From contig CAJTDX010000033.1 of assembly GCA_910575155.1 (NCBI GenBank), positions 1 to 35,063 on the forward strand: a stretch of DNA of 35,063 bases, written 5' to 3'. This document shows, in pieces, positions 1 to 35,063 of this stretch. Every line of letters starts with the position of its first letter. The stretch's first letter is position 1. The position numbers and the translations under genes are program-made. Source of the stretch: Lachnospiraceae bacterium. Its GTDB lineage: Bacteria > Bacillota > Clostridia > Lachnospirales > Lachnospiraceae. The notes under the pieces were generated by a model that saw only the letters and a list, made by a program, of their open reading frames with translations, was not told the origin of the DNA and searched no databases.

Positions 1-154
1 AGATGTGTGTCTCACAAGGTCCTCATTTTACTCATTTATTCTGTTTTTTGTTGCCCTGTCAGGCTAAATTATAATCTGCCAGCAGGATATGGAGCTTCTG
101 CTGTGACATAGTATTTTTTAGGCATCATCCCCTTCCTGATATAGATGGAATCCT

Positions 155-865
155 CTAATCTTTTTGGATTTTATGCAGCAGCTCTTGGAAATTCTGTGCA
201 TTTTCTTCAAACTGGGGCAGGAATCCCTCCCCAGTGTCATAATGCAGGTAAAGAACTACAAAGGCTGCTGTCCATACCAATTCCATTACTTGGGGCCTGA
301 ATTTCTTTTCCATCTTCCTGAAAATTATGCTTGTCTCCATGATAACCTTCTGCCATTTGATAAAAAATTCATCCTCAATGGGAATCCCACAATGCCCCAG
401 CCACTCCCTCACAGTATGGGATTCTGCATTGTCACCACATCCAGGGCTGCTGAAAATATATTGGACATCTTCCACAGAAATATCCTTGATGTTCCCTCCT
501 GCATCCCCAACCTGCAAGAATCTCCCTATGGGGAACAGGGCACATACAGATGGCTTGGATTTATGGACCATGCATTTCCTATCTTTCAGCAGGGGGCATC
601 TTTTCACATGCCCCTTGGGTTTGACCCTCACAATGGGGACCCTTGAGTCTTCCCCTGCATAAACCTCACAATACTTTTTTACCAACTTTTCTGGGGGCAT
701 GCCCAGTTCCCTGGACATATTGTAGACATCCCTGGGGTTCAACAAAATGTCTTCCCTATAGGTGCAGCATTTTCCACAGCATGTACAATGGAATTTGAAT
801 GTCCCATCAATGCCAATCTCCCTTCCCCCAAGGCTGGAAATGATGTTTTTTAATGTTTCATCCAT
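155..865 (-). CDS. YkgJ-type cysteine-cluster (metal-binding) protein
   Basis: The protein is about 236 aa if it starts at the ATG at 865, which sits 8-10 nt behind a GGAAAGGAGGAG ribosome binding site; the frame stays open to 1000 without a comparable site. Near residues 27-34 it carries a CTCCGKCC cluster followed by YREDILLNPRDVYNMS. Two further cysteine segments follow, RCPLLKDRKC and SVCALFPIGRF. This is the pattern of the YkgJ/CxxCxxCC family, thought to chelate zinc or iron-sulfur. In clostridia such proteins are usually cytosolic and of unknown substrate. The C-terminal ~90 residues look helical and are not recognised. It lies downstream of the SfsA-like gene on the same strand with a gap of about 100 bp. 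Family assignment is firm; biological role is unknown. Confidence 0.8.
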   Translation of the reverse strand: MDETLKNIISSLGGREIGIDGTFKFHCTCCGKCCTYREDILLNPRDVYNMSRELGMPPEKLVKKYCEVYAGEDSRVPIVRVKPKGHVKRCPLLKDRKCMVHKSKPSVCALFPIGRFLQVGDAGGNIKDISVEDVQYIFSSPGCGDNAESHTVREWLGHCGIPIEDEFFIKWQKVIMETSIIFRKMEKKFRPQVMELVWTAAFVVLYLHYDTGEGFLPQFEENAQNFQELLHKIQKD

Positions 866-963
866 CTTCTTCTCCTCCTTTCCTCCTCCATTGTACCTTC
901 CTTTTCCCTCTTTTAATTTCTTGCAAAAATGCACTTTCTCTGCCCATCCTGCTTCTGCTCCCT

Positions 964-1686
964 TCAGCTTAATAAAACCTTGTCTGTGATGTTCTGGCAT
1001 GACAAAAGGGTGATCCCATCTGGTTCTAACCTTAGGTCAATAACCCAGAATTCAGTATTTTCCTGCAAATCTGCCCCAAAGAGCCTGCTCAGTTCCCTGC
1101 ACAGGAAACCCTTCATCTTGTCATTCAGCCCATGCTGGAACACTGTCAGGAGAATAAACCTCTTATTTCCATTCTCCATCCTTGAAACCATATCCCTATA
1201 CCTTACAGCCTTCCCATCAGTCAGCATCAGGGACTTTACCTGCAACCAGCCATCCCCTGCTGCATTCAGGATGGCATCTGGCACATTGAGTTCAATATAG
1301 GCATCCCCTAATATGAAATCTGGCCCTTCTTCCCTGCTTTCTATTTTCCTGCTGGCTATACATCCACCAGCCAGTTCTTCCATGTGGTGGTTGGCAAGGA
1401 AAAATCCAACTGCCTGCTCAAAAACTATGGGCTGCAAACAAATCCAGCCCTTATTTTCTGTCACTATGCTATCCAGGGAGAAAGCCATCACTGAATATCC
1501 CCCACCATCTGGGCTTTTCCCCTCTGAAACAAGGCATGGTGTCCCACACTCACTGACATTCCCCCTGACAGTTTCAGGGCAGTAAATTTCCAGTTCCTCC
1601 CCATCCAGAACCAAAACTGTTGACTTGTTTTCTTTGGTTAATAAGACAGCCTCCTTCCATTCTTCCTCAAAATAATACTTCTCCAC
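964..1686 (-). CDS. SfsA-like protein (putative DNA-binding/nuclease fold)
   Basis: A 240-aa protein starting at a GTG at 1686, seven bases behind AAGGAGG. The segment CPETVRGNVSECGTPCLVSEG resembles the SfsA stretch that reads like CPNTGRM..L..PGTPVLLSEG. A later segment, LQVKSLMLTDGKAVRYRDMVSRM, resembles the SfsA stretch EVKS.TL..G...FPDA.S.R. SfsA proteins have a PD-(D/E)xK nuclease-like fold and were named for sugar fermentation stimulation; some bind or cleave nucleic acid. In this copy the usual E-V-K appears as Q-V-K, so an acidic catalytic residue may be lost. The N-terminal F-KRPNRF-like motif is not visible. The call rests on pattern memory of the family, not a database search. An unrelated restriction-like fold is the main alternative. 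Confidence 0.45.
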   Translation of the reverse strand: MEKYYFEEEWKEAVLLTKENKSTVLVLDGEELEIYCPETVRGNVSECGTPCLVSEGKSPDGGGYSVMAFSLDSIVTENKGWICLQPIVFEQAVGFFLANHHMEELAGGCIASRKIESREEGPDFILGDAYIELNVPDAILNAAGDGWLQVKSLMLTDGKAVRYRDMVSRMENGNKRFILLTVFQHGLNDKMKGFLCRELSRLFGADLQENTEFWVIDLRLEPDGITLLSCQNITDKVLLS

Positions 1687-1805
1687 AGATTCCTCCTTCC
1701 CCTGCTTTGCTTTCCTGTTCCTTTTTCAGCATAGCACAGGGGGATTTCTGTAAAATTTAGAGAAAATTCCATAGAAAGCCAGCCCTTGCCCTTTAAAAAA
1801 ACACA

Positions 1806-1840
1806 AAAAAACAGGACACACCCCTGTGAATCCTGTTTTT
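1806..1840 (-). terminator. Rho-independent terminator after the SecB-like gene
   Basis: The stem pairs AAAACAGGA with TCCTGTTTT around a loop containing a minor CACA/TGTG pairing. A long A run on the plus strand gives a U tract on the minus-strand transcript. It lies about 125 bp past the stop of the SecB-like gene. A closely related hairpin occurs at 2488-2527. Confidence 0.7.
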
Positions 1841-1963
1841 CTCTTTCCCTTATATTTTGTACCTATAAAAATGCAGCAGGCTTTTGCCCCTTATCCCTGT
1901 CCTCCCTCTATCCCAATGTCCCCTTAACTGTCTGTGTCTGGCTGGAAGCCTGCCAACTTTTTA

Positions 1964-2341
1964 TCACCCACATACAGGCTCCAGGTCTTTTTTCTCCACT
2001 GCAACCTCCATCAAGCCACTTTCTATTGAGAGCATCCTTATAATCTGGTCTGCATAAGGGAACAGGCTGTCATAGCACTTCAGCTGTTCCTCTTTTGGAA
2101 ATTTGCCATTTTTAATGCCATCCACATGGAAAATCCCCTCCAAAACCAGTTTAAGGTGAAATTTACTGGAATCTTCCATCCCCAAATATTGTTCCAGCAC
2201 TGCCACTGCCATGTCTTCTCCTGGTTCAAAACTGACAGAAAATTCCATATGGTCTGACAGACTGACCTCCCCAGACTCTTCCAGTTCATTCAGCAGCTCC
2301 AGCCTGCTGATCTTGTAGCCTAACAGTTCTACTTTTCCCAT
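1964..2341 (-). CDS. SecB-like export chaperone
   Basis: A 125-aa protein from an ATG at 2341 preceded by AAGGAGGAGGAAG. The C-terminal stretch SLFPYADQIIRMLSIESGL matches the SecB signature LFPYAR..I..L....G-P. The middle (FHLKLVLEGIFHV) fits the beta strands and the 'v.G.F' segment of that fold. SecB holds secretory proteins unfolded for SecA; in many Gram-positives SecB-like proteins are solitary or belong to toxin-antitoxin-chaperone modules. No adjacent HigBA-type pair is visible here, since its neighbours are the SfsA-like and Rpn genes. The XRE gene at 3671 and the HigA-like gene at 8802 are further away. Substrate is unknown. It could serve the large exported proteins coded at the right side of the window, but that is inference. 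Confidence 0.6.
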   Translation of the reverse strand: MGKVELLGYKISRLELLNELEESGEVSLSDHMEFSVSFEPGEDMAVAVLEQYLGMEDSSKFHLKLVLEGIFHVDGIKNGKFPKEEQLKCYDSLFPYADQIIRMLSIESGLMEVAVEKKDLEPVCG

Positions 2342-2351
2342 CTTCCTCCTC

Positions 2352-2580: not shown

Positions 2581-3438
2581 TTATGTTGCCATCTGCAACT
2601 CTTCCTTCTGGATTTCCAATACAGCCTCTCTGGACAACCCTGAATACCTGATAATCTTCTCCAATGGCTCATTCCCATGTATCATTTCCCTTGCCATCTC
2701 TTTCTTAGCCTCATACTTTTCACTTTCCACATATGACCTCATCACTTCTTCCTGATCATACAGCTCCATCAACATGCTCAGCACCTCCTGCTCTTTTCTT
2801 TCCAGATACTCCTTCAATACATCCCTGTCCTTACATATCCTGATGGTCTCTTTGATTGCCTTCCTTGTCCTGCCATAAGCCTTCACCTGCTCATTGCACA
2901 CTTTTGTGAATACTACATACTGGTTTATTATATCCCCCTCTTTGCCATCATAGATCATTTTCACTTTTAAATCCAGGCAGACCTGCTCCCCACCAAAAAA
3001 TTCCCCTGCAAATGAAATCTCTTCTGGCCTTGTCTTCCTGTCCCCAGTATAGATGACATAAACCTCTGGCTTTGGCATCTTTAATTTTTTACTGTTATAT
3101 ATGTTCTGCCTGGTTTCATTGAAATATTCCCTGTATGTCTGCACAAGGTACATCAATGCCCTGAATATGATATTGGGTGTCCATGTGGACTGGCTTTCTA
3201 TCAGAATCAATAAAGTTGAGCCTACCCTGAAGCCTATATCATTATAGATGTCATTTACAAGGACATTGCTGACTGTGACATCTTGCAGGTCATCTTCTGT
3301 AACACCCCTGTCCTCTGGGTGCAAAGCCTGGTACAGCTGCACCAAATACTTTTTTTCTTTGAATAATGAAGTAAAGACACTATCTTTCAAGGTGTGCTTT
3401 ACTATCCCATCATCATTCTTCTCCTCTTTCTCTCCCAA
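2581..3438 (-). CDS. Rpn family / PDDEXK_2 transposase-like nuclease
   Basis: A 285-aa protein starting at a TTG at 3438, eight bases behind AGGAGGTG. The N-terminal part (KDSVFTSLFKEKKYLVQLYQ) and the nuclease core NDIGFRVGSTLLILIESQST are typical of the Rpn/PDDEXK_2 family. The D and the E-x-Q of that core match the catalytic D...ExQ pattern. These proteins act as recombination-promoting or abortive-infection-type DNases and are abundant in clostridial genomes. The C-terminal ~90 residues are rich in K and E (KEYLERKEQEVLSMLMEL), as in family members with a coiled tail. The active-site residues look intact. It is monocistronic with its own promoter and terminator. Confidence 0.85.
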   Translation of the reverse strand: MGEKEEKNDDGIVKHTLKDSVFTSLFKEKKYLVQLYQALHPEDRGVTEDDLQDVTVSNVLVNDIYNDIGFRVGSTLLILIESQSTWTPNIIFRALMYLVQTYREYFNETRQNIYNSKKLKMPKPEVYVIYTGDRKTRPEEISFAGEFFGGEQVCLDLKVKMIYDGKEGDIINQYVVFTKVCNEQVKAYGRTRKAIKETIRICKDRDVLKEYLERKEQEVLSMLMELYDQEEVMRSYVESEKYEAKKEMAREMIHGNEPLEKIIRYSGLSREAVLEIQKEELQMAT

Positions 3439-3670: not shown

Positions 3671-4006
3671 CTACTTATTGTTGTTATAGAGAGCAATGCA
3701 TTCATCAACCACATTTTCCACAATCCTTACCTGCTGTGGGGTCAGCTTATCCAGCTTTTCAGACAGCAGGAGCTTGTCCTTGTCAATAATATCCCCTGTC
3801 AGGAGGTAGTCTGTGCTTACCCCTAATGCAGCAGCCACTTTCATCAGGTTCTCTGGCCTCATCCCCCTCTTTCCTGATTCAGCATATGACACAAACTGAG
3901 TGGTTAATTCACTCAGTTCAGCCAGAGCCTCCTGGGTCAGCCCCAGTTTCTTCCTCCTCTCCATGATCCTTTGTCCCATTTCTTTGAGGTACAGTTCCAC
4001 ATTCAT
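3671..4006 (-). CDS. XRE-family transcriptional regulator
   Basis: A protein of 111 aa if it starts at the ATG at 4006 behind GGTGGAAGGA; a GTG at 4018 in the same frame is the alternative. An HTH_3 domain covers about residues 10-70 (GQRIMERRKKLGLTQEALAELSE followed by YAESGKRGMRPENLMKVAAALGVSTDYLLTG). The remaining C-terminus (KLDKLTPQQVRIVENVVDECI) looks like a helical dimer tail. A 10-bp perfect inverted repeat lies about 40 bp upstream and between divergent promoters, so it probably represses itself and possibly the plus-strand gene at 4209. Such regulators are common on mobile elements. Confidence 0.9.
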   Translation of the reverse strand: MNVELYLKEMGQRIMERRKKLGLTQEALAELSELTTQFVSYAESGKRGMRPENLMKVAAALGVSTDYLLTGDIIDKDKLLLSEKLDKLTPQQVRIVENVVDECIALYNNNK

Positions 4007-4043
4007 CTTTCCTTCCACCTTTCTTCTTATTGTGAAATTCTAT

Positions 4044-4070: not shown

Positions 4071-4075
4071 GTCTG

Positions 4076-5504: not shown

Positions 5505-6008
5505 TCACAGCCAGCCAATCCTTGTGAATGGGAAGGCTATCAGCCTTGCCTTTGCCTTGAGGTTTGCAGCAGGCACATATTTTTGTTTCCAGAACCTGCT
5601 GTCATTTGAATTGTTCCTGTTGTCCCCAAGGAAAAAATAATGCCCTTCTGGAACTTTGTAAACCCCATCCCCCCTCCTGTTCTGGGGGCCATTGGTGAAA
5701 GAATTATCCAGTTCAACACCATCAGCATATACTTTGCCATTTTTTACCACAATTGTCTCCCCTGGAAGCCCAACCACCCTTTTGATATAGAGCATCTGTG
5801 GATGGTCTGGTGGTGTAAACACCAGGACATCATACCTTTCAATATCCCCTTCCCCTATCCCATATCTGGAACAGATGACATGGTTCCCAGGCTCAATGGT
5901 CCCTGCCATGCTTTCTGTTGGGACAACAGTCAGCATGAACACACACTTAAATAAAATAACTACAATAACCAAAACTGCCACATAAATGATAAATCCTCTC
6001 CTCTTCAA
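5505..6008 (-). CDS. lepB: Signal peptidase I (first copy)
   Basis: A 167-aa type I signal peptidase if translation starts at the TTG at 6008, which follows GGGAGAGGAGG; the frame runs open to 6191 only because the leader is tandemly duplicated. Residues 6-29 form one membrane anchor. Then come VPTESM with nucleophile Ser33, YIKRVVGLPGE with general-base Lys76, and the conserved GDNRNNSNDSR box. The enzyme removes signal peptides from Sec-exported proteins at the outer face of the membrane. The short length with one anchor is the Gram-positive Sip form. It is paralogous to the copy at 22044, with which it shares most motifs. Catalytic residues are intact. Confidence 0.92.
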   Translation of the reverse strand: MKRRGFIIYVAVLVIVVILFKCVFMLTVVPTESMAGTIEPGNHVICSRYGIGEGDIERYDVLVFTPPDHPQMLYIKRVVGLPGETIVVKNGKVYADGVELDNSFTNGPQNRRGDGVYKVPEGHYFFLGDNRNNSNDSRFWKQKYVPAANLKAKARLIAFPFTRIGWL

Positions 6009-6215
6009 AATAACTGCCTCCTCTCCCTTTCTTTTTCCATATCTTACCACTGGCCATCCTTGGAAGGCTTTTGCAGAAACCATCCACTCATTTGGAGGCC
6101 CTCCTGTTTCCCTCCAAAATAACTGCCTCCCCTCCCTTCTTTTTCCATATCTTACCACTAGCCATCCCTGGAAGATTTTTGCAGAGACCATTAAACCATT
6201 TGGGTGTTCCTTCTA
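6007..6215. repeat. ~109-bp tandem duplication of the signal peptidase leader
   Basis: Two similar units start at 6007 and 6116, each with AAAATAACTGCCTCC and the block TTTTTCCATATCTTACCACT. Each carries a copy of the GGAGG ribosome binding site and the first codons. It duplicates the leader of the signal peptidase gene, so only the proximal copy drives the enzyme. Confidence 0.75.
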
Positions 6216-7056: not shown

Positions 7057-7395
7057 TTATAAGCACAGTTGAATCCCTATTGCTTTTTTCACCAGCCCAA
7101 CATAGACAGTATGCTGGATGCTCCCCATCTTCCTCTCAAGCCTGTCCTTATTGATTGAAGTGATCTGCTCTGCCAGTACTATGCTTGGCTTTTTCAGCCC
7201 ACATTCCTTAATTAAAACATGGGTTGGAAGCTCTGCCTTGCACATCTTACTTGTAATAGGGATAACAGTAATTACTGGTGAATGCTGGTTGGCTTTATTA
7301 TTAGAAATAACCAGCACAGGCCTTCCACCTGTCTGCATGCTGCTTCCAGCCTCCCCTTCAAGGTCTGCCCAAAAAATATCTCCATATCTGCACAT
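7057..7395 (-). CDS. MazF/PemK-type toxin, no adjacent antitoxin seen
   Basis: A 112-aa protein from an ATG at 7395 preceded by AGAGGAGGACAT. The start YGDIFWADLEG, the block GGRPVLVISNNKAN and the block VITVIPITSK are hallmarks of MazF/PemK/Kid endoribonucleases. IVLAEQITSINKDRL matches the conserved region near the C-terminus. Such toxins cut mRNA at short sequences and are neutralised by a small upstream antitoxin. No convincing antitoxin frame is present between 7396 and 7880, so this is an orphan copy or is controlled in trans, as is common for the EndoA-like lineage in clostridia. The region upstream carries only short tandem repeats. The family call is firm. Confidence 0.88.
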   Translation of the reverse strand: MCRYGDIFWADLEGEAGSSMQTGGRPVLVISNNKANQHSPVITVIPITSKMCKAELPTHVLIKECGLKKPSIVLAEQITSINKDRLERKMGSIQHTVYVGLVKKAIGIQLCL

Positions 7396-8092: not shown

Positions 8093-8749
8093 TTGGGAAA
8101 AACAGTAGGATATGCAAGGGTAAGCTCCAGGGAGCAGAACCTGGACAGGCAGCTTATAGCCTTAAGAAAATATGTGCCAGAAGACATGATAGTGGCTGAC
8201 AAAGCAAGTGGCAAGGATTTCAACAGGGCTGGATACCAGTCATTGAAAGTTGGGATTGGGAAATTAGCCAGAGGGGACACCTTATACATTAAGTCTTTGG
8301 ACAGGTTCTCCAGAAACAAGGATGAGGCAAAGAAGGAGCTACAGTACTTTTCAGGGATTGGGGTCAGGGTAAAAATCCTTGACATCCCTTCCACTATGGC
8401 TGAGGTTGCAGCAGGGCAGGAATGGGTCCTGGATATGATAAACAACATTTTAATAGAGGTGCTGGCTTCAATAGCAGAAAATGAGAGGGCAACCATCCTT
8501 GCAAGGCAGGCTGAGGGGATTGCTGCTATGCCAGTGGATGGGGAATCTGGGAAGAAAATCAGTAAGAAAACTGGCAGGTGCATTGGAAGGCCACCCATCC
8601 AGTTCCCAGAGTATTTTGAGTTTTACTATAGGAAATGGAAGGACAAGGAGATCACTGCAACCTCTGCCATGAAGTCCCTGGGGCTGAAGACCAATTCATT
8701 TTATAAGCTGGCCCACAGGTATGAAGCTGAGCATGGCATTGCCCCATGA
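8093..8749 (+). CDS. Serine recombinase / resolvase (TniR-like)
   Basis: A 218-aa protein starting at a TTG at 8093 behind GGAAGGGAGG. The N-terminus VGYARVSSREQNLDRQ contains the catalytic serine (about residue 11). It is followed by DKASGKDFNRAGYQ, DTLYIKSLDRFSRN and the long E-helix region EVLASIAENERATILARQAEGI, which are the landmarks of small resolvase/invertases. The C-terminal tail (SAMKSLGLKTNSFYKLAHRYEAE) is the helix-turn-helix that reads DNA. It probably resolves cointegrates or multimers at the sites just upstream. Tn5053-type relatives of Tn7 carry such a resolvase, but here it lies 8 kb from the tns genes, so linkage to them is uncertain. Confidence 0.9.
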   Translation: MGKTVGYARVSSREQNLDRQLIALRKYVPEDMIVADKASGKDFNRAGYQSLKVGIGKLARGDTLYIKSLDRFSRNKDEAKKELQYFSGIGVRVKILDIPSTMAEVAAGQEWVLDMINNILIEVLASIAENERATILARQAEGIAAMPVDGESGKKISKKTGRCIGRPPIQFPEYFEFYYRKWKDKEITATSAMKSLGLKTNSFYKLAHRYEAEHGIAP

Positions 8750-8801: not shown

Positions 8802-9221
8802 TTATATAAAATCAATGCTCAGGCCCATGCCCAGCCCATCAGCCAGCCTTTGGATGGTTGCCAGGGATGGGTTGGATATCCCCCTCTCAAACCTGCTGAT
8901 GTCAGCCTGGTTTATCCCAGTCAGGTCAGCCAACTGCTGCTGGGTAATCCCAGCCTGGAGCCTTGCCTGATACAAAGAAATTCCAAAACCATTACACATG
9001 CCTGTACCATACTGGTTCCCCAAAGCCCTGTCTGGGAGAGCCTTACCCCTGACTTCTTTCTGGAGCAGATCCAGTAAGTCATAGGCAATCCTTACCTCAG
9101 CCCTCCTATTCTCCCTCTCTTCAAATAATTTTCTTATTTTCCCTTCATCTTCCTGGGATATTTCCTGGTTTTCCAGCATTTCCTCCAGCATCTGGCAAAC
9201 CCTAATGCCTTTCTCTTCCAT
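8802..9221 (-). CDS. HigA-like antitoxin / XRE regulator with C-terminal HTH
   Basis: A protein of about 139 aa from the ATG at 9221 behind GGAAGGGG; a TTG two codons upstream is possible. The helix-turn-helix is at the C-terminus (LYQARLQAGITQQQLADLTG, then INQADISRFERGISNPSLATIQRLADGLGMGL). The N-terminal ~75 residues are charged and helical (MLEENQEISQ-like, EERENRRAEVRIAYDLLDLL). This layout matches HigA/MqsA-like antitoxins that follow a HigB toxin, but no HigB toxin frame is seen next to it. It may be an orphan regulator or the relic of a toxin-antitoxin pair. Confidence 0.8.
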   Translation of the reverse strand: MEEKGIRVCQMLEEMLENQEISQEDEGKIRKLFEERENRRAEVRIAYDLLDLLQKEVRGKALPDRALGNQYGTGMCNGFGISLYQARLQAGITQQQLADLTGINQADISRFERGISNPSLATIQRLADGLGMGLSIDFI

Positions 9222-9376
9222 AAGCAAACCCCTTCCTTATTTTGAATTCCTACTATAAATATGGGATTTTGCATTGCTGGAAGGAAATGTGGAACACCAA
9301 CACTATGTACCTGCTCCCCAGAAGTGCTATGCACCCCTGGGAAACATCCCATTCTTTTCCAGCCATCACCTCCTCC

Positions 9377-10414: not shown

Positions 10415-10896
10415 CTTAGTATACAGTGGAATTTTCCATGCCCCATTGGGCTGGACACAATCCCCAGGCATATCCACAAAGCATGGCTTCCCTTCTGTCT
10501 GGTTCCCACATTGGCTGGAAACCTTGCAGCAGGCTTATGCCTGGCCTGCCCACTGGCACATGGAGGCCTGCATTTCTGATATTCCTTTAAAATATCAGTG
10601 GTTTTCAATGGGGGCAATGATTCTTCCTGTTTCTTCCCATTGCAGCCAGCCCTGATTAATAAAGCCCTCTGTTTTTTCTTCCCTATAAAGTTCCTGATGG
10701 CCTTCCATGCCAGGAAAGCTTTCCTGGCCCAGACATTATTTTTATTCCTTATGTGGGTTTTCTGAATTGTGTATAACTTATTACACAATTTTCTTTTTGG
10801 TGGGCCTCCCAGCCAGGGAACCCTGGCTGTAGTCCACACATATGCACCATCCCCCTGTGCTGCCTTTGCATGCCTATCCTTCTGGATGCCCACCAT
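10405..10896 (-). CDS. Possible small basic protein downstream of the Rep-like gene
   Basis: The frame would give 163 aa from an ATG at 10896 preceded by GGAGTGGGG and overlaps the end of the Rep-like gene by 23 bp. The protein is strongly basic (RKLCNKLYTIQKTHIRNKNN, ARKAFLAWKAIRNFIGKKKQ). It would suit nucleic-acid binding, but no family is recognised. Its last codons run into repeat nine of the palindromic array, which argues against the 3' end being a conserved gene. It is reported as a possible coupled gene only. Confidence 0.3.
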   Translation of the reverse strand: MVGIQKDRHAKAAQGDGAYVWTTARVPWLGGPPKRKLCNKLYTIQKTHIRNKNNVWARKAFLAWKAIRNFIGKKKQRALLIRAGCNGKKQEESLPPLKTTDILKEYQKCRPPCASGQARHKPAARFPANVGTRQKGSHALWICLGIVSSPMGHGKFHCILSIS

Positions 10897-11707
10897 CCCC
10901 CACTCCAGGCCCCTCCTCTGGAGCCTTCCCAGGGTTCTTCCCTTCCCATTTCTTCCTCCTCTCCTCCCTCTGCTCACTCCTTGCCTTGACTACCCTGGAG
11001 TCAAATTCACAATAGTCATGCCTCCACCCTTCTGATTTCCATGTCACTTTGTCATCAAGGACATAAACATTGGATGGCCCACTCTTGTATATGGTGACCA
11101 GGCTGTTCTCCTCCAATAACCTGATTGCCCTCCCAACTGACCTGCCAGACACCCCAAACTCCTCCTCGAACACCTTGTATGGGCAGGTGAGCTTGTTATA
11201 TTTGTCTGACTTCCTTGCCATGTACATGAATATTGCAGCAGCCAGCCCATTCTTTGCTGCAACCTTCTCAAAGTCCTTTGTCCTGTTGTAATTCCACTGC
11301 CCCCAGTTCCTATATGTGCTGTTTTTCTTTTTCTGTAAAACTTCCTTCATCCCCTCCATTGCTGCCTGGCCGCTTAAGTACCTCATCCATTCCTGTAGTT
11401 TTTGTTTTGGCTCCTTGCCAGACTCCATCAGGTTCTTTAAAACCTGCCTGTCCTCCTGGGCCCTCTTATCCCTCTTTCCTTGGAGGTCTTTTCCCAGCCC
11501 TGTCTCCATGGCTTCCTTCCAGCACTCATCCTCTGTCATCCCCAGCTTGTCGATTTCCTCAAATATATTCTGTATTTTCCTGCCTTTTGCCTTCCCTTCA
11601 TCCATGAACTTGGACATGGCCTCCTGGAACATCATCCCCTTTGTCTCTTTCACTATGTCCCTTGTCCCTGCTGCCCCTTCCATACCCTTCTTATCATCCT
11701 TGCCCAT
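10874..11707 (-). CDS. Plasmid Rep-like protein with winged helix
   Basis: A 277-aa protein with ATG at 11707. The region from about residue 130 (NYNRTKDFEKVAAKNGLAAA, ARKSDKYNKLTCPYKVFEEEFG) is followed by VSGRSVGRAIRLLEENSLVTI, a winged-helix recognition segment. The tail SGPSNVYVLDDKVTWKSEGW, HDYCEFDSRVV closely resembles the C-terminal block of RepL-like and other plasmid replication initiators (N.Y.LND.VAW...... F.A.V). The N-terminal ~110 residues are charged and unrecognised. Initiators of this kind bind iterons; the palindromic array begins about 460 bp downstream. The gene suggests the window is, or contains, a plasmid or integrated plasmid-like element. A phage or element-borne transcription factor is the alternative. 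Confidence 0.6.
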   Translation of the reverse strand: MGKDDKKGMEGAAGTRDIVKETKGMMFQEAMSKFMDEGKAKGRKIQNIFEEIDKLGMTEDECWKEAMETGLGKDLQGKRDKRAQEDRQVLKNLMESGKEPKQKLQEWMRYLSGQAAMEGMKEVLQKKKNSTYRNWGQWNYNRTKDFEKVAAKNGLAAAIFMYMARKSDKYNKLTCPYKVFEEEFGVSGRSVGRAIRLLEENSLVTIYKSGPSNVYVLDDKVTWKSEGWRHDYCEFDSRVVKARSEQREERRKKWEGKNPGKAPEEGPGVGDGGHPEG

Positions 11708-12159
11708 ATCCTCAACCCTTCCTTTCCAAATTTACAACTAACTGCCAATTCTTTCCAGACATGCATGGCTGGCTTATCTGCTGCCTTGCCTGCCCTGTCT
11801 GTACCATAGTCACTGAAATTGGAAAAAGGAGCCTTTTATTGCCATGGCTGTGGGAAATCCCTGGAAACATAGAAAAAAAATATGCCATAAAACCAGAAAA
11901 CCAGCCTGCCCAGCCCTTATTTTTCCAATAAAAGGACAGCCAAAAAACACATGATAGATGGCCCATTTGGTTGTCCTGTTAAATTATTAGAAGTAAATAA
12001 TGCTAGGCTAAGGATGGTGATATGTCTGGTCATCAGCATATCCCTTAGATAGTGCATTATTGAATTGCCCTGCCTCTGCAAGGTTTCCCTATTATGGCAT
12101 ATTTTTCCAGGGAAGTCAATACATTTTTTGAAACCAGCTTACAATATACAGAATTTTTC

Positions 12160-12390: not shown

Positions 12391-12401
12391 TAGGATGTGT
12401 G

Positions 12402-15214: not shown

Positions 15215-15280
15215 GCAGGTTTGGAGGTTCTTGGTGTATAGGGAATTTTGGGTGGCACATTCATAACAGGAGTAACAGTG
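13922..15280. repeat. Clusters of 8-9 bp TAACA iterons in both orientations
   Basis: Short arrays read GTTATTGGTGTTATT at 13922, 14063 and 14348. Arrays of the reverse sense, ATAACAGTATAACAGGAATAACAG and variants, lie near 14573, 14793, 15021 and 15261. Each array has two to four units at 8-9 bp spacing. This resembles iterons or a protein-binding centromere more than coding DNA. Confidence 0.65.
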
Positions 15281-25900: not shown

Positions 25901-28900
25901 GAAGAGCCTGTTCCCATCCCCATCCTCTTCATAAAGGAAGTTCCCAGACTCATCCACCTTAGGGTAGCAATCAATCCCATACTTTGCATTGATATCAGTC
26001 CTGCCTGCTGCCTCCCTGTATGGGGCTGAGCCAAGGCCTGCATCATTTGCCAATCCTGTCCTGAAGGTGAATGTTGCAGTGAGGCTCCCTTTTTTGGTAG
26101 CCTCCAATGCACTGCCAAATTTCTGATCTTTATAAAAGGCAACCTCAAACCTTGCATTGGAGAGATCTGCATTGTCATAGGTATTGCCACCTGCATTCCT
26201 TTTATATAAGTAGAGGTAGAGTGGCCCACTGCCTTTGATTGAAGCACTCTGGTCTTTGTCATTTATGTCAGCATGGTCTGCAATCAATACCCAGTTCCCT
26301 GAGCCATTGCTGTTTTTCTCAATATAGAGGTACTGGTACACCACAATGGTTTTCCCTGCAAGGGTGTTGGTTACAATGTTATTTCCATCAGTCCTCACAC
26401 CTGCTATGGAGAAATGCACCTTATGCTCCCCATTTGAAGAACTTGGGGTGAATGTTTTGTCAGCATCCCTTACAGAAGCCTTGCTGCCCCTGGCATCCAC
26501 CAGCTCCTTGCCTGTCCCCAAGTCCATTACCACAGTTTCCACCTTGTAGTTGGCATGTGGGATTAAGTTCTTATAAGTGATGGTGTCCTCAAAGCTGATG
26601 GTTGGGCCATTTTCAGCAATGTTAGTGTTTGTTTCCTCACACCTGAGCTTTGTGGTGATTTTTGGGACCAGGAATGTTTCCTTCTTATCATTGATTTCTT
26701 TATGGTCCACAATCAAATGGTCATTTTCATACACTTCCACATATGCCACATATTTCTTCCCCTTGCTGTCTGTGGCATCAAAATTGAATGGGACATCCCA
26801 TGTGCCACTGCCAGATGCACTTGCTGTCCTTTTTTCTTCCCTTATGCCACCAACCATATTCCCAGTTTCAGCATCCACAAGCCAGTATTTAACAATATAT
26901 GGCCTCTTTTTCTCAAGGTTGGTGTAAGTGATAGTGTCCTTAAGCGCCTGGTCTTTGCCTGCATAAATGATGGACTCCCCAGTGCCTGCCTTCCTGTTGG
27001 CATCTGTACCAATAATGCTTGTGGAAATCCCATCAATGATGTAGATTTGCTCCATTTTATCATCCTTGCTGGAGGCTTTGCCAAGGCCATCATTTTCCCC
27101 TTTGCCCCAAATGGCAGAGCCTGAGCCATCAGCCCCCTGCTTTACAAGCAGGTAGTTCACAAATACCAGCGTATGCCCTTTTAAGTCAGAAATGTCCACT
27201 GTAGCCCCCACTTTGAACTGCACCTGTGAGCCAGCATTCACATGCCCGTCAGCCCCTGTGCTGAACTCTGTCTTGAACTCTTTCCCAGTTTTATTCCCCT
27301 CTGAATAATTACTTTTTTTCTTCCAGCTTACTGAAAGAGGAATATCAGTCCTGTCGTCTTCTGTACCAAGATCATACAGCTTTGTGGTTACAAAGTATTT
27401 TGCAGAAATTTTTTCCAGTGTGTCAATGGTAACAGTGTCCTGCACACTGATAGTCCTATAGGCAGAGCCTGCATACTGTTGGTTAGTGTCCAGGCAGACA
27501 GCTTCTGACTTCATATCAGGGCTGTCTGGGTTATCAACTGTGATGATGGAAACTCCAGTATCAAGAATCTCAGGATCATCAGGGTCAGGCTCATTGTAAG
27601 CACTGATGATGTTTGTGTTTGTTTCTTTCCCATTGATATAGTATTTATGGTAAATTTCTCCATCACCATTTTTTGTTTCCTCAATCTTCAAGGCCAGCCC
27701 ATTTGTCAGGATATCTGTGCTTGGCATGTCCTTGTTGTCTGTGCTTTTGCCATAACCTTCCATTTTTCCTGTTAACAGATAACCAACAGGAGGCTTAATC
27801 TCTTTGATGATGTAGGTCCCTGGCTTCCCCCAATATTTTGAGTATGCCTCATGCCCTGAAACAAGGAAGTCATTAATGATGTTACCATCATCATCTTCTA
27901 TGAAGTTTCCATCATTGTCCTGTTTGGGAGAAAAATCAATCCCATAATCATAATTGTTGTCATCTGCCATATCCTTAAAAATCTTTGTTCCTGGGCCATT
28001 TCTCTTTGCTGACTTGGTTGAAAAAGTGAATGATGCAATCAGATTCCCATTTTTATATGCACTTTCTGGGCTATTAAAGCCTTTATCATAGTACTGAACT
28101 TCAAACTGTGCATCCCTCAGGGTTGCACTTTCAATTTTTTCCCCATCAGCGCCTTTTTTATAAAGGTAAAAATAGAATGGGTCAGATAATGGATTCTTCC
28201 CAAATTTATATTTCACTTTGAGAACTCCTGAACCCATCTGTGTAGTTTGAGTCATGTGCTGGGTGTACAATCCAAAAATCAAAAATCCATCAGTACTCTG
28301 AGTATTATCTTCATGGTATTCTTCCAGGAGTCTGATGGCTATTTTTCCTGCAAATTCATTGTTGCCGCCTCCATGTTCGCCAATCGCTGGGGTTTTAATG
28401 TGGGCACAGTGCATCTGCAATTCCCCAAGCGCCCCAAACTGCTTGATTAGCTCATTAATTGTCATTGACTCATCATCAGTCATTGGAATCCCGTCTGCTG
28501 AAGTGCGTGTAAAATCACCAAGGTTAACAAAAAATGGGCAGGTTGAGCTGCTTCCAGCACCTTCCTCTGGTATGTATGCAAAATTAGTTGCAGCGCCGCC
28601 ATTTACATAATTCATGATGTTTGTGGCAACAGAATCAGCATTTGTGCCAGTGCCTGTGTAAAGCATAGTGATATTGCTCCCAGCTAAAGCAGCAGAGCCT
28701 TTAGCATAATACTTCATTGAGGTAGTGCCATACATAACATTCCTCAGGGATGGCATTCCATCTAAATCCACTGGCTCAGAGAGGTAGATGGGTGGCTGGT
28801 CAGATGGGAGATAGGGGTGGCTCTCTGGAAGCTGGCTGCCAGACATATTGCCCAGATCAATGCCTGCTGCATCTGATTTTTCCATGAAGTCCAGCAGTTC

Positions 28901-30247
28901 ATCAGAGAGTGATTCCCTTCCCTCAGTCACTTCCACTGAAGTTACAGCAGAGGGGGAAACTTCCATGGATAATTTTCCAGTTTCAGGATCATATGTATAT
29001 GCATCCTTGGATGTGGGTAGGCCATTCACCAATACATTCAGGTTCTCAGGATCCATCCCCTTATCAACAGTGACATCTGTTTTTAAGGAAAAGATTTTCT
29101 GTTCAGAAGAAGAAAGTTCTATCTCTTCCTTTTTTTCATCTACTGAAACCATATGCACTTCTGAAGCCATGGACTCATCACTGTTTTTGCTGACTTTGTT
29201 AAAAACCTGCATGAACTGCACTTGAAGGTTCATGAAAATGTCTTTGTCTGGCTCTTCCTGGCTTTTGTAAAGCGCTTTTGGAATGTATAGCAATCCAGTT
29301 GCTTTATCATAAATACACCCCTCCACAGATTCCCCATTTAAGTTGTTCAGTGCAACAGCAAAATCCTGCACAATGTAAGCTGTGTCTTTAATCATGGTAT
29401 TTGCGCATGCCACAAAGTAATCACTGTCTTTGTTCATGTCATATACAATCACCCAGGCATCAAGCTGTGAAATGAATTTTTTTACATTCTTTTCAAAATT
29501 TTTATCTCCTGATTCAATGCTGCTTATTACACTGTCTATGGTGTCATTTTCTGCCACATATTGCCCATCAAAGAGGGTATTTTTCACAAGTAGTACATTT
29601 GCCATTTTAATGTCATCACTGTCAACAGAAATGTATTTTTCATTCAAGTTACTCTTAATATAACTTTCAGTGATTACATCAGTTATGACTTCCTCTACTT
29701 CTTCTTTGGAAATGTCCATATCTTCTACAATGTCATGATACTCAATGCCATCATCAGAAGATTTAGATTTTTCATCATCCTTGATGTTTATGGTAGCAGT
29801 AGAAGAAAAAGTGACTTCTACAGAAACATTTTTCTCAGGCATGGAAAAGGAAAAGGCATTATCCACTGTGTCTGCCTGTGACAATGTTTTGCCTGTTTCA
29901 GAGTCTTTTAAAGAGAGTGATTCTACATAATACCCATCATCAGGAATGCACTCAATCTCTACATCATCCCCTGCCTTAAATGCCCAGAGAGATCCATCAT
30001 TTTCAATCTGTTCCATTTCTCCATCATCATTGATGTGCATCATCTGATAACCATCCTGGGATGCAGATGAATTGTTCATGCTGTCCTCAGAAAACTGAAT
30101 CAGCCCATTCTCTGTATCAGTTAACGTCACAGTGTAACTTCCATCAGGGTTGCTTTCAGCAGCATGTGAAATGTTCACAATTCCAGCAGGTATGCACATC
30201 AGGGATGCTAACAGTGCAGAGGTAGCCTTTTTCAAGAATTTCATCAT
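22979..30247 (-). CDS. Giant VaFE/Cna-B repeat surface protein, anchor missing
   Basis: About 2,422 aa from the ATG at 30247 behind AAAGGAG. Residues 3-30 form a Sec signal peptide (KKATSALLASLMCIPAG, then HAA). A ~450-residue acidic N-terminal domain is followed near residues 550-690 by a segment with CPFFVNLGDFTR and MHCAHIKTPA. Two ~650-residue modules follow, starting near residues 690 and 1340, each with a SpaA-like domain (FYFYLYKKG / LYLYLYKRN) and several VaFE ester-bond domains (the pattern GKTIVVYEY, LIADHEDFEDENQ). Further VaFE repeats run to the end. The family is a sortase-anchored adhesin or pilin-like stalk, but this gene stops after HIADSPGRVASWRLQ with no LPXTG, so it is truncated. 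It is rich in rare CG dinucleotides. Confidence 0.85.
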   Translation of the reverse strand: MMKFLKKATSALLASLMCIPAGIVNISHAAESNPDGSYTVTLTDTENGLIQFSEDSMNNSSASQDGYQMMHINDDGEMEQIENDGSLWAFKAGDDVEIECIPDDGYYVESLSLKDSETGKTLSQADTVDNAFSFSMPEKNVSVEVTFSSTATINIKDDEKSKSSDDGIEYHDIVEDMDISKEEVEEVITDVITESYIKSNLNEKYISVDSDDIKMANVLLVKNTLFDGQYVAENDTIDSVISSIESGDKNFEKNVKKFISQLDAWVIVYDMNKDSDYFVACANTMIKDTAYIVQDFAVALNNLNGESVEGCIYDKATGLLYIPKALYKSQEEPDKDIFMNLQVQFMQVFNKVSKNSDESMASEVHMVSVDEKKEEIELSSSEQKIFSLKTDVTVDKGMDPENLNVLVNGLPTSKDAYTYDPETGKLSMEVSPSAVTSVEVTEGRESLSDELLDFMEKSDAAGIDLGNMSGSQLPESHPYLPSDQPPIYLSEPVDLDGMPSLRNVMYGTTSMKYYAKGSAALAGSNITMLYTGTGTNADSVATNIMNYVNGGAATNFAYIPEEGAGSSSTCPFFVNLGDFTRTSADGIPMTDDESMTINELIKQFGALGELQMHCAHIKTPAIGEHGGGNNEFAGKIAIRLLEEYHEDNTQSTDGFLIFGLYTQHMTQTTQMGSGVLKVKYKFGKNPLSDPFYFYLYKKGADGEKIESATLRDAQFEVQYYDKGFNSPESAYKNGNLIASFTFSTKSAKRNGPGTKIFKDMADDNNYDYGIDFSPKQDNDGNFIEDDDGNIINDFLVSGHEAYSKYWGKPGTYIIKEIKPPVGYLLTGKMEGYGKSTDNKDMPSTDILTNGLALKIEETKNGDGEIYHKYYINGKETNTNIISAYNEPDPDDPEILDTGVSIITVDNPDSPDMKSEAVCLDTNQQYAGSAYRTISVQDTVTIDTLEKISAKYFVTTKLYDLGTEDDRTDIPLSVSWKKKSNYSEGNKTGKEFKTEFSTGADGHVNAGSQVQFKVGATVDISDLKGHTLVFVNYLLVKQGADGSGSAIWGKGENDGLGKASSKDDKMEQIYIIDGISTSIIGTDANRKAGTGESIIYAGKDQALKDTITYTNLEKKRPYIVKYWLVDAETGNMVGGIREEKRTASASGSGTWDVPFNFDATDSKGKKYVAYVEVYENDHLIVDHKEINDKKETFLVPKITTKLRCEETNTNIAENGPTISFEDTITYKNLIPHANYKVETVVMDLGTGKELVDARGSKASVRDADKTFTPSSSNGEHKVHFSIAGVRTDGNNIVTNTLAGKTIVVYQYLYIEKNSNGSGNWVLIADHADINDKDQSASIKGSGPLYLYLYKRNAGGNTYDNADLSNARFEVAFYKDQKFGSALEATKKGSLTATFTFRTGLANDAGLGSAPYREAAGRTDINAKYGIDCYPKVDESGNFLYEEDGDGNRLFQNDFLTSDKAEYTRYFGQAGTYVVREVEPPVGFSLSGTMEGYGSGKAPTTKLSEGLALYIAEMVNSEGKIIHQYSVDGKIMNEPIINTDNDWIPKNEKGAAIIIDDNPEYPEISTSAICLDTNQQYADSQSRAVSILDKIKVKTLPKVDATYTITTKIYDLNDKKFLRVNWKNKSEYSDPDTTSEQYKTEFSTANKGINAGDTVRFEVGAIVDGTALKGHTIVFINYHKVTERADGSGRVIWGADAEGNVLNGGLGVATSMDDKLEMLTFPDQRTDIISTQNERKGLNGEGIIYAGMYKDDTLQEGHGTRFQVLNDTIYYKNYEPGREYTVKAWLMDVKTQAPALDANNNEIFNMQATQKQIASETGEGTWDISFEFDATGCGDRKYVSYVEISLGSELVADYKDLGDESESFLIPKITTKLKDNETGLDVSYAGETVSLTDTISYSRMMVGADYKVKTKVIDVETKKELVDVHGETVEVPEQVFTAASESGTWDIPISFAALVKNPDGTIKNTLAGKTIVVYEYVYIEKNSNGSGQWVLIADHEDFEDENQRAYLPYIDTLALDEKTRNHISNAEKGLKIHDTVNYKKLNPKYKYRLVSELRDKSTGKIVVDDSGTEQVITTPVTIDAVDGTIKPTKQGGVIFDLNAESFAGRTLVVFERLYLLNGESSFLVADHEDILDEDQTDYIPKVWTRAMVEDIFATASPDRARIIDTFSYDNLIPGLTYKLKGKVVDKNSTIHAGTDILAGGASKNELVFQPESSSGSVRLSFDVNKQNNGVFVVFEELYLVTSYDGADHEILVAKHTDIGDLNQTVYINPTLETSLLDAGTKTKVLDAKEDALLTDTITYKGFDPRLSYVIRGQLIDMETGSVLTDSKDVRVEAEMDAIPDSTGSGQWVMEYKFDASKLAGKIIVAYEEIYEKTGAGTRLVAAHRDFWDKEQRVIIPVIDTVALNPKTNGHIADSPGRVASWRLQ
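22989..23013 (-). promoter_or_regulatory. Hairpin over the ribosome binding site of the HD-like frame
   Basis: CTCCAGG and CCTGGAG form a 7-bp stem with an 11-base loop at the adhesin/HD junction. The GGAGG used by the HD-like frame sits in the 3' arm. It may hide that site unless ribosomes arrive from the adhesin gene, or it may mark a recombination joint. Confidence 0.4.
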
Positions 30248-32520: not shown

Positions 32521-33750
32521 TCAGAAGTTTTTAAACAATAAAAAAAGAGCATCTTTATCCATACCCTTGTCAACTGTAACCTCAGTCTGCATAGAGAAAA
32601 TTTTCTGTTCAGAAGAGGACAACTCAATTTGTTCTTCCTTTTCATCCACAGAAACCATATGAACTTCAGAAGTCATGGGCTCCTCACTGTTCCTGCTTAC
32701 TTTGTTGAAAACCTGCATGAACTGAATCTGGATATCCATGAATTTTGCCATACCACCCTCAGCCTCATAGAGCTTTTTGGGTATATAAAGCAAGCCTGTT
32801 TCCTCTTCATAGATACAGCCATCCACAAGCTCACCATAGTCATTGTTCCTTGCAACATCATAATCCTGAACAGTATAAGCCAGATCCTTCATCATGTTAT
32901 TGGAATAAGCCACATAATACTTGCTGTCTTCATCCAAGTCATATACCATAGCATAAGAAACAAGCTGTGACATGAATTTCTGCATGCTTGCATCCAATTC
33001 ATCCTCACTGCTGTCTGTATCCTCAATTGTTCCCATGACACTTTTTATAGTGTCATTTTCTTCAACAAAAGCACCATCAAAGATGGAATGCTTGACTAAG
33101 AGCATGTTGACAAGGGAGGTTTTGCCACCAAGCTTAATATATTTCTCATTTACATTACTCTTAATATAGCTCTCTGTAATGACATCAACCACTACCTCCT
33201 CTACTTCCTCTTTGCTGATATCCATATCCTCTATGATGTCATGGTATTCAATCTCATCAGAGGATTTAGATTTTTTCTCATCCTTGATATTGATAGTTGC
33301 AGTGGATGAAAAAACTGCCTCCACAGATATATTTTTCTCTGGCATGGAAAAGGAAAAAACATTATCCACTGTGTCTGCCTGTGAAAGTGTTTTTCCAGTT
33401 TCAGAGTCCTTTAATGCCAGTGTTTCCACATAATACCCATCATCAGGAATGCACTCAATCTCAACATTGTCACCAGAATTGAATGCCCACAATGATCCAT
33501 CATTATCAATCTCTTCCATCTCTCCATCATCACCTATTTGCATCATCTGATAACCATCCTGAGATGCAGATGAATTGTTCATGCTGTCCTCAGAAAACTG
33601 GATCAGCCCATTCTCTGTGTCTGCAAGTGTGACTGTGTAACTGCCATCAGGGTTGCTTTCAGCAGCATGTGAAATGTTCACAATCCCTGCTGGGATGCAC
33701 ATCAGAGATGCAAGCAATGCAGAAGTAGCTTTCTTAATGAATTTAAACAT
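32521..33750 (-). pseudogene. Truncated second copy of the adhesin 5' end
   Basis: A 409-codon frame that matches the first ~395 residues of the giant adhesin, including the signal peptide (KKATSALLASLMCIPAG) and the blocks NPDGSYTVTL, NNSSASQDGYQMM and SSEQKIFS. The match ends at VTVDKGMD, after which the frame reads KDALFLLFKNF and stops. No repeat module or anchor follows, so it would give only a free secreted N-terminal domain. The upstream AAAGGAG leader is conserved too. It has no CG dinucleotides that I noticed, unlike the long copy. It could be a donor for gene conversion with the full gene, or a relic of duplication. Confidence 0.85.
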
Positions 33751-33850
33751 TATATTTAATCTCCTTTCTCATTTTTTATTTTAGAAGTTTCATTGATCCA
33801 TACAAATATGAAATTTTTTGGTGAGGAGGTGTGTAAGATAATTAAAAAAA

Positions 33851-33888
33851 ACAGTCTTGGACTTGTCATCCAAGGACTGTTTTTTTTT
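33851..33888. terminator. Bidirectional terminator upstream of the truncated adhesin
   Basis: ACAGTCTTGG pairs with CCAAGGACTGT (one bulge), with T runs on both strands. It matches the terminator position seen upstream of the full adhesin. Confidence 0.75.
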
Positions 33889-34035
33889 CAAGAGTACTGT
33901 ATAAATATAAAGGTGAGCATCTTTTATTTCACAGAATCTATTGACAGAAAAGGAAGGATATGGTAAGGTGTAAAAGAAGAAAGAAATGTTATTTTAGAAA
34001 ACAGTGTAGAGTGTTTGTGTACTGCACCTGGTGTG

Positions 34036-34126
34036 GAGTGCCTGTATTTCAGGGTATCCTATGTTTTCTCCATCATCATTAATGTGCATCATTTGGGTGT
34101 AGAGTCCATGTATTTCAGGGTACACT
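34036..34126. repeat. Direct repeats flanking a tiny adhesin fragment
   Basis: TGTATTTCAGGGTA occurs in two 25-bp repeats starting at 34036 and 34102 (offset 66 bp). Between them, 34067-34092 matches adhesin positions 30018-30043 except for one base. It looks like debris of a third adhesin copy. No gene is seen from 33,890 to the window end. Confidence 0.65.
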
Positions 34127-34142
34127 TTGTTAAGGCAAAGAG

Positions 34143-34183
34143 AAACCCTTATAACTTTGAGGTTATAAGGGTTTTCTTTTTTT
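34143..34183 (+). terminator. Strong hairpin terminator
   Basis: A perfect 13-bp stem (AAACCCTTATAAC / GTTATAAGGGTTT) is followed by a long T run on the plus strand. No plus-strand gene is visible ahead of it. Confidence 0.75.
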
Positions 34184-34342
34184 ATCAACACTATTCTTTA
34201 CCAGGAAAATCTTTAGAAATTATTCCTTTTCAGATTCCTGCTTATATCAGGCTCACATATGATATACTTTGCAGTCTGAGGGATGACATTCCTTACAAAA
34301 TTCAGTGCATGCTTATCCATTGTTTCATCAAGGATATTCCTG

Positions 34343-34935
34343 TTTTTGGCAGAATGAGACAGTCCTGGTGGTTTTCCTCCAGCCTGTAATAAATCCACTG
34401 CCAAAAACCTTGCCATCCTGCCAAATCCAAAATTTTTGGCATTCCACAGATACCCCCACAAATGCCCTATTTATAGGCTTCCTGGCAATCTTACAGATGT
34501 AATCTGCCAAAAATCTCTTCCAAAATGCCAAAAACATTCCCCTATCTTGCCAAAAATTAAATTTTTGGCATCCTCCATATAATCGAACCCCTTTATTTCT
34601 GGGCATTTCAGCCATTTCAATCATTAGGCATCTGCCAAAAATCCTGCCAAAAATATCCCCATCCTGCCAAAAACTAAATTTTTGGCACTCCCTCCCTGTT
34701 TTTGGCACTTCCCAGATCACCTCTATCAACTGAAATCCCTTCCTCTCTCCTATCTTCTTTCCTCCAGATTTTCCCTCCCCAAAAACTGCCAAAAATCTTG
34801 CCAAAAATCCCTCTATTTTGCCAAAAACAAAATTTTTGGCATTTCCACAACAATTTTTAGTGCAAAACTACTAACATCCCAGTCCACTCTATCCATATTT
34901 TTATTAACATCCAACAAATTCCATCTGCCAAAAAC
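34343..34935. repeat. Dense TGCCAAAAA / TTTTTGGCA repeat field
   Basis: At least 15 copies of TGCCAAAAA or its reverse complement occur in 600 bp. Four of them face each other as palindromes centred near 34430, 34559, 34676 and 34830 (TGCCAAAAA, 3-6 bp, ATTTTTGGCA). Pairs of direct copies precede each palindrome. No credible gene lies here; frames crossing it repeat the same peptide because of the DNA repeat. It could be a transposon end, an operator field or an iteron origin. Confidence 0.8.
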
Positions 34936-35063
34936 ACCATTTCCAAAAAATACTATGTCATGGCAGAAGCTCTATATCCTCATGGCAGATTTTATCCTAT
35001 CCTCCCTCCTCTTCTTCTCCTCTCTTCTTCCTCCCTCTCTTTTTTCCAAAATAATATCATAAA

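Follow-up and report, generated by a model that had tools for sequence, protein, structure and literature searches.

Near-complete loss of the CG dinucleotide in a Tn7-like transposon of Lachnospiraceae

A Tn7-like transposon core beside ppdK

The DNA analysed here (the window), 35,063 bases from a Lachnospiraceae bacterium, is the core of a Tn7-like transposon that is nearly devoid of the CG dinucleotide. It spans positions 1–35063 of contig C33 in genome G000 (4.19 Mb, 148 contigs) and is apparently the whole contig, because the 108-mers at its ends also form the ends of other contigs. A TnsB-type DDE transposase, recognized by its profile match to Tn7 TnsB, is accompanied by a TnsC/TniB AAA+ regulator and by TniQ, with TniB, AAA_22 and TniQ all above the Pfam cut-off. 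Upstream of tnsB lies a gene for a putative TnsA-like protein of 145 amino acids (aa), present in 15 of the 17 loci given to tblastn; it had no match in the domain libraries, and searching the PDB with its profile gave no TnsA chain. Plasmid-borne remote kin of this TnsB adjoin genes annotated as TnsA. A Pfam scan of 22 distinct proteins, which left small and some larger open reading frames (ORFs) unscanned, found no Cas genes, and no dedicated search for CRISPR arrays was made; PADLOC, run on 10 proteins, returned only a weak Csa3-like helix-turn-helix match, and the window holds no tRNA or Rfam family.

The junctions place the element in its chromosome. Bases 1–108 of the window match the final bases of contig C8 (C8:143626–143733) at 100% identity, and bases 34956–35063 likewise match the start of contig C54 (C54:1–108, 100%); in the window both 108-mers face outward and adjoin AAAAAATACTA. 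With a slash marking the junction, the flank on the C8 side reads GGGAGCAGT/TGTCACAG, the host resuming as GCAGT/TGTCACAG, and the C54 side reads CCATGACA/GCAGT, giving a 5-bp target duplication, GCAGT. The element starts 15 bases past the stop codon of ppdK (TIGR01828, above cut-off). At one resolved end in another genome (G022:C31, locus L209), the core is followed by the right end (R), a CpG-free purine-rich spacer, the left end (L) and then CG-bearing host DNA, with about 820 bases from R to L, and an identical core–R–spacer–L order stands beside ppdK in L036, a relative in an uncultured Lachnospiraceae assembly. From this order in L209 and L036 (in G000 the spacer was not observed), we infer direct repeats of about 0.8 kb flanking the core; contigs would break there because the repeats occur twice. 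The gene ppdK adjoins a related element in L036 and a related tnsB in L038. These are 2 of 24 other loci examined with tblastn; in many of the 24, the sequence includes no host DNA on that side. The gene looks like a conserved attachment site for this family of transposons. These two relatives next to ppdK have higher CpG.

CG depletion follows the element, not the host

The window contains 25 CG against 1,618 expected from its C and G content, an observed/expected ratio (o/e) of 0.0155, at a G+C content of 43.5% and with GC, TG and CA at 1.06, 1.45 and 1.37. The depletion is confirmed in genes and gene-free DNA alike. For 24 chosen coding sequences (CDS), 200 draws of host codon usage on the same proteins gave 1,101 CG (s.d. 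27); 23 are present, and 323 of the 324 arginine codons are AGR, the other being CGC. Outside these CDS there are 2 CG against 526 expected, 2 against 405 when five further likely ORFs are masked as well, and 0 against 243 when all non-overlapping frames of at least 100 aa are masked. CG is depleted alike in every flanking context, non-palindromic ones included. More than half of the residue (15 of 25) lies in the adhesin gene at 26,901–29,500, where o/e is 0.13; the rest of the window has 10 CG against 1,502 (0.007). A preliminary description of this DNA, made by reading the sequence, had put the count at 25–30 and had described genes and gene-free DNA as both depleted and arginine as almost always AGG or AGA; the counts bear it out on each of these points. 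It had named as counter-evidence a ratio close to 1 or similar to the one in related clostridia, and this check did not refute it.

Its assumption that the loss is a trait of the genome did not hold. We scanned 76 other stretches of G000, covering 1.34 of its 4.19 Mb (20, then 36 readable of 40, four of that batch reading N and one in part, then 20). Their o/e is mostly 0.85–1.07 (0.64–1.03 in the first 20), which excludes genome-wide CpG loss, and the depletion ends at the contig ends: the adjoining chromosome stands at 0.82 (last 2 kb of C8) and 0.85 (first 2 kb of C54). Similarly abrupt edges occur in L031, L200 and L209. The lowest host values belong to C36 (0.64 and 0.56), C51 (0.58), C48 (0.69) and C67 (0.69); judged by eye from their large ORFs, C36 and C51 are prophage-like and C48 resembles an integrative and conjugative element (ICE). 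Host genes make free use of CGN codons. A single long CG-free run turned up in the scanned host DNA, 1,473 bases of C53 (2171–3643) where 54 CG were expected (next: 13), and it includes a stretch 92% identical to window 2390–3790.

Relatives show the same association. Of 41 related genomes, 4 (G000 included) have TnsB, one of them as a remote 32% match, and the named genome collection has it at 14 loci. Five close tnsB genes (the window and L030–L033) have o/e of 0.00–0.01 and form a single clade (support 100/99), next to a sister clade of five genes at 0.40–0.70 and seven remoter genes at 0.58–0.98; judged by this tree, the CpG-free tnsB genes have one origin. Sister-clade assemblies are mostly labelled Lachnospiraceae, and none was met among 29 genomes of the genus. 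TnsC occurs in 4 of these 29 genomes as six genes, one of the two in G043 being remote (45%) with o/e 0.66. The Rpn-like gene of the element, our marker for finding other CpG-free copies, matches 24 of the 29. We fetched only the best matches, 30 Rpn loci, and built a tree from 26 of them after leaving out four that were too short; the 26 comprise 11 CpG-free loci (0.00–0.03) and 15 at 0.57–1.13. The CpG-free rows need two changes on that tree and may have one origin. They fall in six genomes (G000, G004, G013, G022, G023 and G043), and the fetched regions show them to be other parts or remnants of the same element, with sharp edges, so that at least six genomes of one Lachnospiraceae genus carry copies or remnants. 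In G013, about 12 kb of CpG-free DNA within a 3.2-Mb contig is broken up by ordinary-CpG DNA; the CpG-free region of G022:C31 measures about 4.7 kb. Remnants lie inside ordinary chromosome in G013:C1 (904.6–916.8 kb and 2551.3–2555.1 kb), G000:C53 (2171–3643), G023:C2 and G023:C5, some of them cut by normal-CpG DNA. In L031 and L032, TniQ is replaced, within CpG-free DNA, by a 34–35%-identical gene, and the insertion sites there may differ in keeping with the swap. A DNA search with window 1–25000 found no related plasmid or phage record.

The loss of CG is still active. In a 15.3-kb alignment of the window with L130, the frequency of C/T differences is 2.5–3.8% before A, C or T and 0.25% before G. 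Sixteen aligned copies hold 3 CG-creating singletons against about 153 expected, a shortfall of about 50-fold, well beyond the marginal, on a crude expectation that uses site counts only, without context rates, over copies that exchange segments and hence are not independent. The remnant G013a shows 1 CG-creating change against 17. At 30 sites where the sister clade agrees on CG, the CpG-free clade has none, 14 having changed by one transition and 16 in other ways; GC, by comparison, is kept at 73 of at least 104 sites. Judging by their spread among diverged copies, some residual CG are old: CG 9628 is present in 5 of 6 copies that differ locally by as much as 10%, CG 34584 in 3 of 3 (as much as 14%) and CG 20238 in 3 of 5 (as much as 8%). 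CG 9628 is an arginine CGC codon where two minus-strand frames overlap (9377–9881).

The remaining features are collected in Table 1. The 61-nt repeats near the right end, by their position, are probable TnsB-binding sites. The 43-nt unit of the diverged array has a hairpin core resembling AAAGTAAAAAACTTT, and some related contigs end within the array. In the adhesin gene, 27,503–28,976 has no aligned partner in L030 or L130, and the CG-richer stretch around it was probably exchanged more recently.

Table 1 Features of the window (nt, nucleotides; E values from profile searches)
Feature	Position	Strand	Basis or remark
L end	1..108	-	begins TGTCACAGCAG at 108 reading outward; identical 108-mer ends C8 beside ppdK
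Terminal inverted repeat arms	61..119 with 34945..35003	.	59 nt, 83% complementary, 34,825 nt between
CxxCxxCC (YkgJ-type) metal-binding protein	155..1000	-	PF03692
SecB-like protein, weak	1964..2341	-	PF02556, E 3.8e-5, below cut-off
Rpn-type PD-(D/E)XK nuclease/putative transposase, weak	2581..3438	-	TIGR01784, E 1.9e-5, below cut-off
Helix-turn-helix regulator	3671..4018	-	PF01381
Signal peptidase I	5505..6191	-	PF10502
PemK/MazF-type toxin of toxin-antitoxin pair	7057..7395	-	PF02452
Serine recombinase (resolvase family)	8093..8749	+	PF00239
Helix-turn-helix regulator	8802..9227	-	PF01381
Winged-helix (HTH_36-like) protein	10874..11707	-	weak, below cut-off
Diverged-repeat array	12100..15450	.	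10 copies of 43-nt unit and larger ones; 1 CG against 180 expected
TniQ (TnsD-like target selector)	16534..17892	-	PF06527, E 6.8e-18
TniB/TnsC AAA+ ATPase	17889..19133	-	PF05621, E 1.2e-10; AAA_22
TnsB transposase	19137..20960	-	Tn7 TnsB (7pik) profile, E 1.3e-67; tree
TnsA-like endonuclease, putative	21436..21873	-	from position and SDF...VREC motif
Second signal peptidase I gene	22044..22565	+	22215-22524 71% identical to 5546-5855
Large surface adhesin, T-Q ester-bond domains, 2,423 aa	22979..30250	-	PF18202, 7 stretches
CG-richer adhesin stretch	26901..29500	-	15/25 CG
Second, shorter adhesin copy	32521..33750	-	repeat families D3, D7, D12
Four copies of 61-nt repeat, TGCCAAAAA...TTTTTGGCA	34386..34846	+	repeat family D8
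R end	34956..35063	+	begins TGTCATGGCAG; identical 108-mer begins C54

Probable selection against CG and the mutational alternative

If CG had decayed to TG and CA, the base mix before G should be that of the host with C added to T (conversion model); if CG were banned, it should be the host's non-C bases scaled up (ban model). Before G the host has A.256, C.206, G.242 and T.297, and the window A.300, C.003, G.306 and T.391, where the ban predicts A/G/T of.322/.304/.374 and conversion.256/.242/.503. Expressed as Kullback–Leibler divergence times 2N (KL × 2N), the misfit is 17 for the ban and 382 for conversion in the window, and 30 and 1,003 in the other copies. At third positions the synonymous routes are biased towards transitions, so we took DNA outside genes as a better test than four-fold sites. 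There the values are 36 and 184 (21 and 138 without the repeat array), and three stricter masks give 28 and 146, 14 and 101, and 13.5 and 96. Outside genes, the bases replacing C before G are therefore far nearer a ban than CG-to-TG decay. Singletons of the A>T and G>T types before G number 25 outside genes (ban 21, conversion 34–35) and 13 in the four-fold subset (10 and 19), and by our arithmetic the codon use of alanine and threonine fits renormalization.

Restriction-like marks extend to other motifs. GATC is the non-CG tetramer most reduced relative to the host (0.33 in the window, 0.27 in four copies, 0.72 in the host), GACC/GGTC stands at 0.45 (host 0.77) and CTAG at 0.13 (host 0.28), the GATC and CTAG depletion being counted over the whole element only. 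The pooled contigs C36, C51 and C48 avoid two sites strongly, with o/e of 0.10 for GATC and 0.18 for GGCC. Mobile DNA in this genome carries marks of restriction avoidance, of which CG is the extreme one. C36 (L019, L115) and C51 (L070) are related prophage-like contigs with a reverse transcriptase gene; the ICE-like contig C48 is L068. Avoidance of several 4-bp palindromes was rejected as the whole cause, since non-palindromic contexts are equally empty and GCGC is the commonest residue. The genome contains 11 PF00145 stretches, and the one compared with the PDB is nearest M.HhaI.

We favour, at a probability of roughly 0.5, the reading that selection has favoured the element's escape from a CG-directed barrier that its hosts pose to mobile DNA. 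The near-absolute and still active ban on CG would then reflect selection at the DNA level, with a G+C content that has not been lowered. Copies bearing CG would do worse at a host barrier where incoming or transposing DNA might be cut in a restriction-like way, silenced or kept under surveillance, the chromosome being protected or not examined; the element would evade it by sequence, as phages do for restriction sites of 4–6 bp, at a target of 2 bp. No such barrier was found. The preliminary description had offered a CG-targeting restriction system as one of three causes, and it is the best supported of them, given the GATC depletion and the suppressed creation of CG. More tentatively, and with the odds somewhat against it, some bacteria may have an immune-like system that senses bare CG in mobile DNA and leaves the chromosome alone, and one lineage of transposons may have overcome it by losing CG.

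Several observations weigh against selection by such a barrier. The ban model is itself inexact (KL × 2N of 17–36 on 2 degrees of freedom), and within codons the lean is towards conversion: third positions before G have T at.423 (ban.332, conversion.453), four-fold sites before G, with T at.379 and G at.277, are nearer C-to-T conversion, and proline CCG gives way to CCA only. Before G, singletons of the A>T and G>T types number 75 over all sites, nearer conversion (81) than the ban (44), and 19 with genes and array masked (ban 15, conversion 21); in the tns genes, A>T singletons are 9 of 40 before G and 4 of 80 elsewhere. The third-position lean is explicable by constraint, because transitions there are always synonymous in these families, and it may include a mutational share. 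(In the tns genes of five copies, A/C exchanges outnumber transitions at four-fold sites before A and C; host genes also have many A/C changes before A.) Residual CG is not palindrome-poor (GCGC 9 of 25), unlike what avoidance of several 4-bp sites would leave. The prophage-like C36 and C51 and the ICE-like C48 keep 0.56–0.69, the chromosome's own CG would need protection, and no CG-specific nuclease or methyltransferase was found, restriction nucleases not having been searched for. In the copy in G004:C30 (L134), the adhesin slot is occupied by an insert (12107–17000) that contains 125 CG, so a resident copy is not killed outright by CG; this fits better with a barrier at transfer than at residence, or with a copy that no longer moves. 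The insert's two genes (o/e about 0.55) encode a BspA-like surface protein with leucine-rich repeats and a protein of 565 aa whose C terminus, on our reading, resembles the end of a C5-methyltransferase. As a gauge of ongoing decay the insert is uninformative, its homologues having similar CpG (0.37–0.77 in 10 of 13, 1.27 in 3).

The same codon-level evidence speaks for CpG-targeted mutagenesis, in which the element alone would be CG-methylated or hit by a CG-specific deaminase, CG would decay to TG and CA, and selection would only keep genes working. Third-position C before G becomes T with A and G little changed, the all-site substitutions fit, the dinucleotide is hit in every context, TG and CA are raised, and targeting would explain why the element and not the chromosome is affected. 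We nevertheless consider this cause possible but doubtful. The base mix outside genes is far nearer the ban under every mask, alanine and threonine codon use agrees with renormalization, G+C is not lowered, and 16 of the 30 lost outgroup CG were not single transitions. By our estimate an o/e of 0.015 needs CG to be lost at about 50-fold the normal exit rate, yet CG 9628, 20238 and 34584 persist in copies that differ locally by 5–13%, although 9628 may be constrained; and no CG-type enzyme was found among the 22 window proteins scanned. Methylation with poor repair, as proposed in the preliminary description, is accordingly disfavoured as the sole cause, the host being undepleted and the DNA outside genes lying nearer the ban; what survives of it is the lean towards conversion at third positions and in all-site substitutions. 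Less likely still is that the composition was inherited from an unseen CpG-free main home, whether a host or a vehicle (plasmid or phage), that repeatedly seeds this genus. It would account for copies that diverged under the ban while the surrounding chromosomal DNA did not, for chromosome-embedded remnants that are still CpG-free (C53, 0 CG against 54; G013, G022 and G023) and for their regaining almost none (1 against 17 in G013a). No CpG-free host or replicon turned up, however, and the four CpG-free members of the 14 TnsB loci match G004, G022 and G043 of this genus; the sole relative on a viral contig (53% identity) has o/e 0.97, plasmid matches are all below 60% identity, three other element proteins had no viral match, and a wholly CpG-free genome would itself need explaining.

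Selection at the level of RNA, codons or immunity (tRNA supply, CG-cutting RNases or escape from TLR9) is very improbable. Arginine codon use agrees with it, but DNA outside genes is at least as depleted, which comes close to equal loss in transcribed and untranscribed DNA, and the host uses CGN codons freely, and codon-only causes and TLR9 escape are rejected on these grounds and on extent. TLR9 escape, the third cause in the preliminary description, fails in particular because some 36 kb of CpG-free DNA in a 4.2-Mb genome of ordinary CpG could not hide the cell or change how its own host senses it. That the contig is foreign to the genome, through contamination or misassembly, might be suspected from its separateness and alien composition; the junctions rule this out, given the exact 108-nt overlaps with C8 and C54, the matching 5-bp duplication beside ppdK and the pieces of this element found in other assemblies, for example in a 3.2-Mb contig, with their junctions resolved.

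A CG-directed barrier, if real, would represent a novel type of defence, a practical handle for introducing DNA into Lachnospiraceae and, if it senses CG, a parallel to the CpG-based self/non-self discrimination of animals or to targeted transposon silencing. Were targeted mutagenesis the cause, bacteria would have something like transposon methylation or repeat-induced point mutation (RIP). Copies, remnants, the sister clade at 0.40–0.70 and hosts at about 0.9 all occur in sequenced gut bacteria, which makes the cause testable if carriers can be grown.

Comparison with known systems

The element shares with Tn7, Tn6022 and their kin TnsB, TnsC/TniB, TniQ, a putative TnsA-like gene, inverted ends, a 5-bp duplication and insertion just past a conserved housekeeping gene. 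It differs from them in its target, ppdK, in the probable direct repeats of about 0.8 kb flanking the core and in its CpG-free DNA; a term search of the main text of two Tn7 surveys (PMC10293859, PMC8649781) found neither 'pyruvate' nor 'CpG'. Searches of open-access literature, with few subscription journals and preprints among it, yielded no report of prokaryotic DNA whose CpG o/e is near 0.01 and none of CpG depletion confined to a mobile element.

CpG-poor Mollicutes with enzymes of the M.SssI/M.MpeI type are alike in that CG is under-represented; there, CG is the methyltransferase target. The text consulted states that Mollicutes were the only prokaryotes in which CpG methyltransferases had been described, and it gives a genome-wide, mild depletion in Mycoplasma agalactiae, with CpG of 0.46–0.5 (PMC9465063). 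Here, by contrast, the value is 0.015 in one mobile element and about 0.9 in the host. Restriction-site avoidance likewise leaves mobile DNA short of motifs that the host tolerates, and GATC and CTAG are also avoided here. In one study, avoidance of 6-bp palindromes was stronger in plasmid genes than in core genes, and this was not so for 4-bp palindromes (PMC10359461). Known targets are mostly 4–6 bp long, unlike the 2-bp target and nearly total loss seen in this element.

In the RIP of fungal repeats and the CpG decay of methylated vertebrate transposons, mobile DNA also loses a dinucleotide specifically, by C-to-T changes that usually kill its genes. In the transposon described here, the tns genes are open and the DNA outside genes lies nearer a ban on CG.

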